From Myrmaecium sp. VS I D KN 1 (taxonomy: Eukaryota > Ascomycota > Dothideomycetes > Valsariales > Valsariaceae): 64,000 nucleotides of DNA. This document shows positions 18,082 to 22,443 of this stretch, piece after piece. Below the pieces are notes generated by a model. That model searched no databases. It was given only the letters and a program-made list of their open reading frames with translations, and had not been told where the DNA came from. Position 1 is the first letter of the stretch. Each line of letters begins with the position of its first letter. The position numbers were made by a program, and so were the translations under genes. The stretch is taken from contig JADQAV010000002.1 of assembly GCA_019775845.1 (NCBI GenBank), positions 496,001 through 560,000 on the forward strand, in the 5' to 3' direction.

Positions 18082-19052
18082 TCACCTCTCGATCAGGTGC
18101 AATCCGGACGCCGTCTCGACCACGCCGCTCACCTCGCCCGGCTGCAACGCGAACGACGCATCCTCGAACTCTTTCTGCATGTCACCCTTGCCGAAGAAGC
18201 CCCTGTGCACCAAGCGGTTCAACCGTCGTTAGCCACGAATCGAGAATGATGAATCGGATAATGAGAACGACAGATTGGCGCCCAAAGAGGGGGAGAAACA
18301 GGGGACGCGGGAGGGGAAGGGGAAAAAGGGAATGCTGCCCAATGTCGGGCGCCACCCTCAAAGCGTGCAGGGATGAACATGGACGTGTGAAGGGGTTTGA
18401 ACGACGACGACAGGTGCGCGCCGCGCCCAACAAGAAGAACAACACTTACAGGTCGCCTCTCTTCCGTGCGCTACTGCAGTCAGACTCGGTCACGGCTAGG
18501 TCGCCCAGACGGACCTCGCCGGCCTTGATGCGGGCCTCGTGGGCCTGGATGATGGCCAAGGCCTCGTCGCGGGTGCGGGTGATGCGCTCCTCGCGCCAGC
18601 TGGACGGGCGGCGGCTGCCCTCGTGCTTGACGAGCAGGTGGGCGCAGCGGATCTTGCCCGGGGGAGGACCGCCGGCGGCGCCGCCGCCGTTGCCCGCCGT
18701 CGCCGGCACGGGCACGCCCCCGGCGCTGTGGTGGTTGGCCATGTACACCTTGAGCTTCTCCGGGTCGGTGCCCGCGGGCGGCTCCCAGCGGGACTCCTTG
18801 GTGGCCCGGTTGAAGTAGTAGGGCAGGTTCTTGGAGTTGGAGTGGCGCACCTCCCAGCCGTCGGGGAGTCCGGTCTCGACCTGTTTCGGTGGGCGGCGCA
18901 GGGCAGGGGGAGAGCCTCTGGGTCAGCCGAGGGGTTTCGCTGCGGTGTTGCGGTGGTTGTGGGTGCGGGTTGGGGTTGAGGGAGCGCATCTCGCATGTGC
19001 GGATGACCAAGGTCGGCAATGCGGGGGAGGGGGAGGGCTGTAAACATACCAT
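18082..19052 (-). CDS. ESS1: Pin1/Ess1-type peptidyl-prolyl cis-trans isomerase (WW + parvulin)
   Basis: Exons (minus) 19050-19052, 18450-18880 and 18082-18202, 184 aa. The first coding exon is just ATG, spliced at GTATGT to CAG/GTCGAGACC, giving [17 protein letters not shown] domain: [19 protein letters not shown] (about residues 4-37). Parvulin domain about 70-184: [19 protein letters not shown] with the phosphate-binding Arg pair, catalytic-site Cys in [17 protein letters not shown], and the usual end [18 protein letters not shown]. The exon 2/3 junction splits the Leu of RGDLGFF. Known: Pin1/Ess1 isomerises phospho-Ser/Thr-Pro bonds, notably in the RNA polymerase II CTD, and acts in the nucleus. 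The linker between domains is Gly/Pro-rich and about 30 residues long. It is divergent from RPB9. Confidence 0.95.
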
Positions 19053-19639
19053 CTTGGCGTGAACTGTGTCGGGAGTTGCGAACGGTAAGGTAGTAAGGTT
19101 TGTATGGGATTGGGACCGAAGTCGCGAACAGATGTGATGTTGGAGAAAGTAGGTGGAATCGGATTGGTATGCGAACGGAGGTTGATATTTGGGAAGGAAA
19201 GGGAACTTGGAAGTCGAAGGTAGGTATGTTTTAGTTGTAGGTTGCGCTTGGATCGGGTACAAGAGGTTTAGTACCTGAGGTGGCCAAGTGACCGGGAAAC
19301 GCGGGGCGCTAGGGCCAACCGCCCGCGTGCTGATTGGCGGTCACGGGGGGAAGTGGTGGGCGGGACGTTCCATTAGGGAGGGTCAGCACGGTAAAGTGCC
19401 GGGGAATCGTAGTACGTCTGTTTTGGTATCGTTCTTCACCTTACCTAAGCCAACGAAGCAGTGACGACCCTGGCTGCTCACCTCCATTTCCATTTCCATT
19501 TCCATTTCCACACCCTTCCCAACCTCGGACCACTCACACCGCGCGACTTCACCCACCGGTACCGTTACCGTCACGACTTCATCATCTTAAAGGCAAATAG
19601 CATACGTCGAACTCACACAGAGCGACACGCACACGGAAA
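19053..19639. promoter_or_regulatory. Divergent promoter ESS1 / RPB9
   Basis: 587 bp between two outward start codons. It contains a reverse CCAAT box (ATTGG 19333-19337) and a (CCATTT) simple repeat of about four units near 19484-19508. Shared promoter for two genes of the RNA polymerase II machinery; co-regulation is inference. Confidence 0.5.
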
Positions 19640-20743
19640 ATGTCTGCTTCACCCAAGCCCAGCGGGATCGACCCGCGAGACGACAAGCACAAAGAAAAGG
19701 TCATGTTCCGGTTCTGCGCGGAATGGTAAGTGACCGCTGATCCCGTCTATCTTCCAGACGACTGACGATGCATGCCTACTCGAACCAGCTCCAACCTCCT
19801 CTTCCCGAAGGAAGACCTCTCGAACCGGCGGCTGCTCTACTCCTGCCGCACATGCGCCTACGAAGACGAGGCCACCACGACCTGCGTGATGCGCCACGAG
19901 GTGGGCAGCGCCGCCGCCGACACGGCCGGCATCACCACCGACATTGGCCAGGACCCCACGGTTGGTCTCCCCTCCGATTCTGCTGCTGCTGCTGCTGCTG
20001 CTGCTTCTCTCCCCGCGTTCTGCACCATGTGCGGGCAAGAGATTTTCTGCGAAAGGTGCGGGCAGGAGGCGGACGACACCGGCTACTTCCTCGAGGTCGA
20101 CGAGACCGACGTGCCCATGATCGATGTTTCCGATCTCGACGACGACGACGCGTACATGGACGGCGACATGCCGCCCACGCCGGAGCGCTCCCGTTCGCCC
20201 ACGCCCTCCCAGCACGCGCAGAACCCGGCGCAGATGGCGTTCACCCACACCCCTGCCTCGCAGCAAGAGATGGATCCGCACGCGCACTCGCATGCGCACA
20301 GCTGAAGCGGACCCGGAGCGACCCGCCGGATGAAGACCGAACCAGGACAGAAGAGCACTGCCCGCACATGGCGCCACAGCACCATGCAGCACCGCCCACG
20401 CCCGTCACCTTTCCTTGTTGTTCTTTCTCGCTATGATGGGGGCTCCAGTGGCTGACAATCTTCTCTCTTTCTCCTTTGCGCGGCCGTAACAGCTCCCCCG
20501 CAAGCCGATGTGGTGCGCGCGATGCAACGAGGAGGTCGAGGCCGTCTACTTTCAGTCGCAGCAGCGGTCCGCTGAGACGGGAATGGTATGGTCCCTCTTG
20601 CGTTTTTGCTTCATTCCTTTGTCTGTGTTTCACACGTTGGCTTACACGACATGCCTGGGAAAAACGAACAGAAACTGTACTACGTCTGCACGAACCCGAA
20701 CTGCGCGTACACGTGGCAGGAACAGAACGAGAAGGAGAGGTGA
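19640..20743 (+). CDS. RPB9: DNA-directed RNA polymerase II subunit RPB9
   Basis: Exons 19640-19725, 19789-19960, 20493-20585 and 20672-20743, 140 aa. N-terminal zinc ribbon: RFCAECSNLLFPKED...LYSCRTCAYEDEA (Cys pairs CAEC and CRTC; the CAEC pair is completed across intron 1). C-terminal TFIIS-like zinc ribbon: MWCARCNEEVEAVYFQSQQR, then MKLYYVCTNPNCAYTWQEQ. Known: Rpb9 sits at the jaw of RNA polymerase II and affects start-site choice, fidelity and transcript cleavage. Intron 2 (19961-20491, 531 nt) is far longer than the others, starts with the poor donor GTTGGT, and is entirely open in frame up to 20305; see the separate entry. An extended acidic N-terminus (MSASPKPSGIDPRDDKHKEK) makes it about 18 residues longer than the yeast protein. 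It is convergent with uL14m. Confidence 0.93.
19961..20305 (+). other. Open, coding-like retained-intron segment of RPB9 (possible alternative C-terminus)
   Basis: If intron 2 is not removed, translation continues in frame for 114 residues to TGA 20303-20305, giving a 200-residue protein with the first RPB9 zinc ribbon and a new tail. The tail begins with a poly-Ala run, then a CxxC-x5-CxxC knuckle (FCTMCGQEIFCERCGQE), an acidic segment (FLEVDETDVPMIDVSDLDD), a Ser/Pro phosphosite-like PPTPERSRSPTPSQ, and a His-rich end. Outside the GCT run, codons end mostly in C or G, as in real exons of this window. The donor of the intron is weak. Inference: regulated intron retention, or an exon of a fused transcript. 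Alternative: chance open frame in GC-rich DNA. Confidence 0.5.
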
Positions 20744-21759
20744 TTGGAAGAGGGAAGTCGAAGAAGTTGGTGGGGGGTTTCTATGGCTGATCAAAGAGGT
20801 TGCTGTGATGGTTGGAATCTGCGAAGGAAGTGGTTGATGTATGCGCTGGGAAATCAAAAAGCATTTTGAGGTGGGCGTGGGCGGAGCTGGGGCGGGGATT
20901 TGCTGGGAGCTTTTTTTTGGATTTTTCTTTTGGGTTTCTTCTTCATCTACTGCCTTTCTCCCTCTCGGGCATATCGGGGCGTTTTTCCTTTCCACTTTCC
21001 TTTCTGGGCTAGCATTTTGCATTATCTCCACTGGTCTCTTCGCGGTTTTTCTTCTTTTTCTTTTTTTTTTAGGAGTGAAGAAGAATGGAAGGCGGGGAGA
21101 GAGGATCTTTGTTCTCGTCTTTCTTTCTTTTCTGATGACGATGACTACGAAGTGGAAAGGAGGGGAGTCATCAGCTCCATCCTCATGTTCGGGGATGGAA
21201 TTAAATATCAAGCGGATTGAATGGACGGGCTCTGGGCTTGAGTATTGGTCAATATCTCTCCTCTCTCTCTCTCTCTCGTGGCCGTGGTACACGCATGGTG
21301 AATGGATCATAAAAATATCGACGTGACGTGAAATATACATATTGACTGATATACAAAGAAACATATAATGGATGGGCTCTCCCACTCCCCGCGCCGTGTC
21401 GCATTCGTACCCACAGCCCTCTTTCCGTTCAGCGTTGGTTTGCTCTTCCTCGTCCACAGCATCTGATGCCGCTGCTTTTCTCTTTCTCTCCTTCTCTTTC
21501 TCTTTCAGCGGTTGTCGGGGGGTCTCTAGGCCCTGTTTCTTCTTGCACGCTCACTCCTCATGTCTATCTTCATGTCCATGTCCATTTATGTCTTCACCTC
21601 CGCCTCGACCAAACGCCTCCCCTCCCCTCCCCTCCCCTTCCCCCCTTCTCCCTGCCCTTTCACGAACAATCCGCCTCAACGTCCAATCCCACCTTCCCGA
21701 CCCATCTCGACCCGTTCCGTTTCATTCCGTTGCGTATCTTTCGACTGAAACCCCGGGGT
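20744..21759. other. Convergent intergenic region RPB9 / uL14m
   Basis: 1.0 kb of 3' flanks, T- and CT-rich, with a CT microsatellite near 21260-21277. No gene supported; overlapping open frames read as simple sequence. Confidence 0.5.
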
Positions 21760-22443
21760 TTAGATGTGCATGGGCGCGAGGGAGAGGATCTTGGACCACT
21801 GGGTCTTGCGGAGCTCGGCGCCGACGATGCCTGGTAGGTTTCCCACGACATTAGCATCCCATCGTTTCATTTCCACGGGCTCCCGATGTGCCTCCCAGAC
21901 CATTCCCAACCTCCTCAACCCGGCAGAAGGGAACCCGACAACGACTCACCGTTCAATCTCGTCCCAATCGGGTCACCACCCTTATTAATCAGGACGCAAG
22001 CGTTATCGTCGAACTTGACGACGCTGCCGTCGGGCCGCTGGTACTTCTTGGCGGTGCGGACGACGACGGCGTGGCGGACGTCGCCGCGCTTGACCTTGTT
22101 GGCGGCGGAGACGGAGACGGAGGAGGCGCCGGGCCCCTCGGCGGCGAAGTGCCGCTGCTTCTGCACCACCACGATGATCCGGTCGCCCACCTTGGCCGGC
22201 CGCTTCGACCGCAGCACCTTCACGCACTCGACGATCGCGGCGCCCGAGTTGTCGATGCAGTTGATGAGGGACTGGATGGGGAGGGAGGGAGCGGTTAGCT
22301 GGGGAAGATCAAGTTGGTTGGTTTCTGGTTTGGAAGTAGAGTGTGGGTTGGTTTGCGACTCGTGGAGGTGTGATGTGACGTGCGGGAGACGGAGGATGAT
22401 GGGAGAGCGATTGCGGATGGGTCGGTACCTTTAATTGAATCAT
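21760..22443 (-). CDS. MRPL38: Mitochondrial large-subunit ribosomal protein uL14m
   Basis: Exons (minus) 22429-22443, 21950-22271 and 21760-21830, 135 aa. Exon 1 encodes only MIQLK. Then SLINCIDNSGAAIVECVKVL, RPAKVGDRIIVVVQKQRHF, KRGDVRHAVVVRTAKKYQRP, FDDNACVLIN, and after the second intron GIVGAELRKTQWSKILSLAP ending MHI. This is the full uL14 fold, and the length and RKTQWSKILSLAP ending match fungal mitochondrial uL14 rather than the cytosolic homologue. Known: uL14m lies near the subunit interface in the mitoribosome. Donors GTACCG and GTGAGT and both CAG acceptors are clear. A poly-Ser/Val insert (GASSVSVSAANKV) carries a short loop. It is divergent from SET9. MRH4, a mitoribosome assembly helicase, is encoded in the same window but 20 kb away. 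Confidence 0.95.

Follow-up and report, generated by a model that had tools for sequence, protein, structure and literature searches.

Within the 64,000-nucleotide window that we analysed (positions 496001-560000 of the contig; all coordinates below are those of the window), the plus strand carries a four-exon gene for the RNA polymerase II subunit RPB9, whose spliced product of 140 residues contains two zinc ribbons. Both ribbons were recovered above their cut-offs in a family profile search (PF02150, 5.4e-11; PF01096, 2.6e-09), and RPB9 chains from yeast, human and plant align along most of the spliced product, in a comparison whose query contained a surplus W where exons 1 and 2 meet. The junction across intron 2, at which QDPT is joined to LPR, matches the yeast RPB9 chains of solved structures. 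The features of the locus are as follows:

19640-19725, plus strand: RPB9 exon 1 (start codon, spliced translation, donor GTAAGT, PF02150)
19726-19788, plus strand: RPB9 intron 1, 63 nt (donor and acceptor read; the gene finder agrees)
19789-19960, plus strand: RPB9 exon 2, remainder of the first zinc ribbon and linker to QDPT (PF02150; alignment to solved RPB9 chains)
19961-20492, plus strand: RPB9 intron 2, 532 nt, phase 0 (donor GTTGGT, branch-like CTGAC at 20452, acceptor TAACAG)
19961-20305, plus strand: in-frame extension of exon 2, 114 codons and TGA, candidate alternative terminal exon
19982-20005, plus strand: (GCT)8 run, eight alanines
20018-20068, plus strand: two copies of a 24-nt unit at 27-nt spacing, coding FCxxCGQE and forming a CxxC-x5-CxxC pair (repeat search)
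20069-20170, plus strand: acidic stretch ADDTGYFLEVDETDVPMIDVSDLDDDDAYMDGDM with FxxV (residues 43 and 46 of the extension)
20493-20585, plus strand: RPB9 exon 3, first half of the TFIIS-like ribbon (PF01096)
20586-20671, plus strand: RPB9 intron 3, 86 nt (sequence reading; gene finder)
20672-20743, plus strand: RPB9 exon 4, second half of the TFIIS-like ribbon and stop (PF01096, spliced translation)

Upstream lies a minus-strand gene (18446-18919), which we take to be ESS1/Pin1-like, with a WW domain (5.8e-11) and a PPIC-type rotamase domain just below cut-off; downstream, also on the minus strand, is a gene of the Ribosomal protein L14 family (21918-22430, 1.7e-34). RPB9 is a single-copy gene, its four matches across the 25.7 Mb genome all falling within the gene described here, and the translated extension of exon 2, hereafter the tail, likewise has one genome-wide match, at the RPB9 locus. 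As both are confined to this one locus, two forms of RPB9 would need to derive from the same gene.

Intron 2 had been given as 531 nt in the first-pass annotation and comes to 532 nt on re-reading. For comparison, a home-made, self-trained gene finder, which draws on no relatives and overcalls introns, predicted 414 introns in the window and 17 further stretches; intron 2 is longer than every one of the 73 in a stricter subset (longest 366 nt), a comparison to be read with the length penalty of the finder in mind. Its donor, ACG/GTTGGT, had been called poor, which is too strong a word: it is below average and no outlier, scoring above 21 of the 73 strict donors, two of which are themselves GTTGGT. 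The exon 3 acceptor TAACAG, together with CTGAC at 20452, is the top-scoring acceptor (5.1) within 19990-20700. The finder itself placed one gene at 19640-20305 with intron 1 only and a second at 20508-20743, a call that speaks for a gene end inside intron 2, though the penalty on long introns pushes towards it.

The frame of exon 2 runs open through the donor for 342 nt and closes with the TGA at 20303-20305, which bears out the first-pass claim of a stop-free continuation of 114 codons into the intron. Among 324 predicted introns of complete genes, a set which leaves aside three introns from unfinished genes and probably includes many false introns, one is internally open for at least 200 nt (228 nt), and 128 are open to their own end because they are short. 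We scored the tail with a codon model whose training set was 21 open frames, each 500 codons or longer and lying clear of RPB9, with a total of 17,807 codons. Under this model the tail reaches 20.1 nats in frame; the other sense frames give -10.9 and -28.2 and the antisense frame in register gives 2.7, and the 187 nt 3' of the TGA have an in-frame score of about zero. Relative to stop-free shuffles of the same composition, the whole tail stands at z 5.7, the tail minus its first 51 nt at z 5.0 and 20072-20302 alone at z 5.7, with none of 3000 shuffles as high in any of the three comparisons. The tail also takes the 59th percentile among 280 in-frame windows of long open frames, windows which overlap one another by half; the coding-like character that had been ascribed to this segment is hence upheld. 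At the three codon positions the tail has GC contents of 0.675/0.50/0.789, and exon 2 has 0.58/0.53/0.93.

This signal is unevenly spread. Of the 20.1 nats, 18.5 come from 20072-20302 and 2.6 from 19961-20011, and 20012-20071, which holds the Cys pair, costs 1.0. The first 111 nt, up to and including the Cys pair, have almost no share of the codon score. The earlier statement that the segment uses mostly C/G-ending codons accordingly holds after the first 51 nt, where the pieces have a third-position GC of 0.85-0.96, and fails within 19961-20011, where it is 0.24. With the score carried by 20072-20302, the support for coding covers the acidic, Ser/Pro and His-rich parts, which follow the Cys pair in that order, and not the part adjoining the donor. 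That these three parts are coding is well supported, and the presence of an in-frame, coding-like segment within RPB9 intron 2 is confirmed as a real observation.

Soon 3' of the donor comes the (GCT)8 microsatellite, the length of which may vary from strain to strain. The 'new Cys knuckle' of the first-pass annotation is there as a CxxC-x5-CxxC pair; as a zinc-binding domain it fares less well, being a short tandem repeat that stays under every zinc-ribbon family cut-off (Zn_Ribbon_1, E 0.014 and 15.6 bits against 25; DZR, E 0.017 and 15.7 against 27.3). The repeat is itself weak by a codon-shuffle control, which matched it in 12 of 200 cases. PF01096 finds no match in the tail up to E 1, and the intron-retained product would thus be devoid of the TFIIS-like ribbon. 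A search of solved structures with the whole tail yielded one chance match (E 2.2), NCBIfam a single sub-threshold match, and the viral and prokaryote contigs scanned no relatives, as expected of such collections; a single-sequence AlphaFold2 prediction of the tail alone has low confidence along its whole length (mean pLDDT 52.9) and carries little weight in either direction.

At the nucleic acid level, intron 2 holds an inverted repeat (20022-20037 with 20359-20374, 15 of 16 positions complementary), to which a weaker second 5' arm at 20049-20065 is added by the tandem Cys repeat. No shuffle out of 300 equals it, yet 3 of 117 other stretches of the window do, and its pairing, which would loop out most of the tail, is left unused in the predicted fold. 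RNA folding of the intron is no better than that of shuffles (z +1.07), and Rfam has no family above cut-off in 19500-21000.

Several other splicing arrangements were considered and set aside. A cassette exon within intron 2 could be built from 28 frame-keeping splice pairs, the best of which scores 1.06, with weak sites. There is no good alternative donor inside the tail that keeps the RPB9 frame: an extended exon 2 that continues in frame into exon 3 would have to use one of three further phase-0 GT sites, all of which score -2.38 or lower, and the stronger donor at 20056 (2.02) shifts the frame. A copied or mutually exclusive exon 3 was suggested by an alignment of the tail with the C-terminal ribbon (score 34.0, equalled by 3 of 500 shuffles), which involves just 11 residues around one CxxC; against RPB9 exons 1-2 the tail aligns no better than 177 of 500 shuffles. 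Exitrons are intron-like stretches within coding exons, typically stop-free and with a length that is a multiple of three; intron 2 has the in-frame TGA at 20303, and its 532 nt are no multiple of three.

We tentatively propose, at a little short of even confidence, that RPB9 has an alternative terminal exon, consisting of the first 345 nt of intron 2. The chief rival, which we consider rather unlikely though it is the most serious of the alternatives, is ordinary retention of intron 2: the transcript would stop at 20303 and be cleared by nonsense-mediated decay, so that no working tail protein would arise and the event would at most tune the level of RPB9. In a retained mRNA with intron 3 spliced, the stop lies 280 nt upstream of the junction at the end of exon 3, making it a likely decay substrate, and the exceptional length of intron 2 and its below-average donor are in keeping with such retention. 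Moreover, fungal alternative splicing, as far as described, mostly consists of retention in which the unspliced mRNA is non-functional (PMC3597508), and decay-coupled retention is reported from cellulolytic fungi (PMC9118705). Yet decay requires just an early stop, and leaves unexplained why 114 exon-like codons precede it, to a degree that none of 3000 shuffles attains.

Less probable still, and unlikely in our view, is that the segment is a separate or former coding unit which came to lie in the exon 2 frame by chance: a relic exon, or a nested short gene with its start at ATG 20028 or further 3'. In favour of this, the codon score sits in 20072-20302 and not in the part adjoining the donor, chance would bring agreement in frame about once in three, and the (GCT)8 run has no stop. 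No second copy or source gene exists in the same genome, and the ATG at 20028, the supposed nested start, falls within the Cys pair; with the first CxxC straddling this codon, read-through from exon 2 is slightly favoured. Least probable is that the frame is open by chance in GC-rich DNA or as the shadow of an antisense gene. The antisense strand does have an open frame of 251 codons (20404 to 19649), and stop-free off-frame windows that score as high as the tail (4 of 142) are each antisense in register. As the antisense strand is open at the tail too, we compared the two strands directly: across the whole tail the sense frame leads the register antisense by 17.7 nats, the median in 32 real coding windows with open antisense being 17.8, and 20012-20071 leans slightly to the antisense (-2.1 nats). 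The gene finder placed no antisense gene over the tail, and a chance frame is at odds with the absence of any composition shuffle, in 3000, that reaches the tail score.

Under the preferred reading of an alternative terminal exon, the locus would have two outputs. Splicing of intron 2 gives the ordinary 140-residue RPB9 with its two zinc ribbons, as read directly from the sequence. Were intron 2 kept, or were the mRNA to end inside it, the result would be a 200-residue form made of the first ribbon, the linker and the 114-residue tail. The frame and coding character of this form are observed, and its retention and translation are what we infer from them. The predicted swap of the TFIIS-like ribbon for an unrelated tail, as envisaged in the first-pass annotation, thus finds support in the open, in-frame and coding-like segment. 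For an mRNA end inside the intron, none of the six poly(A)-like motifs tried occurs within 20306-20492; this counts weakly against such an end, because AATAAA, one of the six, is also absent after the gene. A literature search brought up no matching paper on intronic polyadenylation in filamentous fungi. Separate searches for a splice or intron-retention isoform of RPB9/POLR2I, in a literature thin on subscription journals, returned no title or opening lines that describe one.

From the known domain roles of RPB9 and its Pol III counterpart C11, the first ribbon would be expected to keep the 200-residue form seated on Pol II, while the form would be without the TFIIS-like ribbon that is tied to elongation and proofreading. 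Loss of the second ribbon of RPB9 would be expected to weaken both. In yeast, reduced RPB9 leads to higher RNA error rates (PMC4868539). The N-terminal domain and linker of C11 supply its essential function without the C-terminal ribbon, and so offer a precedent for an RPB9 half-subunit with first ribbon and linker; like the proposed form, this is an RPB9-like subunit that keeps an essential function minus its C-terminal ribbon, but the C11 half-subunit is a laboratory construct in Pol III and no natural isoform (PMC8501072).

Two fungal genes are comparable on the side of splicing. In PTC7 of Saccharomyces cerevisiae, the retained intron yields a second functional protein; as in RPB9, one intron of one gene is spliced or kept, with coding in both frames. 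The PTC7 case is experimentally shown and both its forms are phosphatases, whereas the retained form of RPB9 is predicted from sequence, would end early and would bear an unrelated tail (PMC3597508). The coding character of the retained frame, which is to be expected of a functional retention isoform of the PTC7 kind, is present at RPB9 and is carried by 20072-20302. SKI7/HBS1 resembles our proposal in that two proteins come from a single fungal gene, in this case by alternative 3' splice sites in diverse ascomycetes; the alternatively spliced gene is conserved across Ascomycota and Basidiomycota (PMC3597508), whereas the RPB9 case is read in one genome. Fungi have few functional proteins that come from retained introns (PMC3597508).

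As for what the tail might do, it may supply an additional binding site on the 200-residue form. TFIIH-interacting regions have a central aromatic residue with acidic flanks, to which UVSSA, Rad4 and TFIIE-alpha add a valine, three residues further along, that occupies a second pocket (PMC11266705). The tail offers F43 and V46, with 7 of the 16 flanking residues acidic, and so conforms to the sequence pattern of such regions. The remaining 62 predicted proteins, with 35,597 residues between them, hold no such site with at least seven acidic flanking residues, one with six and seven with five, and 5 of 5000 tail shuffles give a site as acidic as that of the tail, figures which are too favourable since the motif was picked after the tail had been seen. 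Searched against PDB sequences, the acidic stretch matched only 14 isopenicillin N synthase sequences, at E 0.46 or worse. Both a Tfb1 PH domain and Elf1 are encoded in the genome. A close parallel is the C-terminal tail of Elf1, which binds TFIIH p62 and, like the RPB9 tail, is an acidic tail with a central aromatic on a Pol II-associated zinc-ribbon protein; Elf1 is without the neighbouring valine of UVSSA, Rad4 and TFIIE-alpha, whereas the RPB9 tail, a putative binder, has F43 and V46 (PMC11266705). The end of the Elf1 homologue in this fungus (about 1080-1330 of another stretch, L025, minus strand) is acidic by eye, with an aromatic between acidic residues, so RPB9 would not be alone in having a putative TFIIH-binding tail. 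As a weak suggestion, the acidic FxxV may be where a partner docks on the RPB9 tail, with TFIIH p62/Tfb1 as the most specific guess.

Taken a step further, and improbable as it stands, a putative splicing switch could set up two kinds of Pol II in one cell, the spliced one with the TFIIS-like ribbon and the retained one with an acidic tail that would recruit TFIIH or some other factor to the polymerase. RPB9 is generally seen as one fixed subunit that aids the accuracy of Pol II. If the 200-residue form is natural, its anchor would be kept and its TFIIS-like ribbon dropped, and the subunit make-up of the polymerase, and perhaps the accuracy of transcription, would be something that a fungus may set by splicing.
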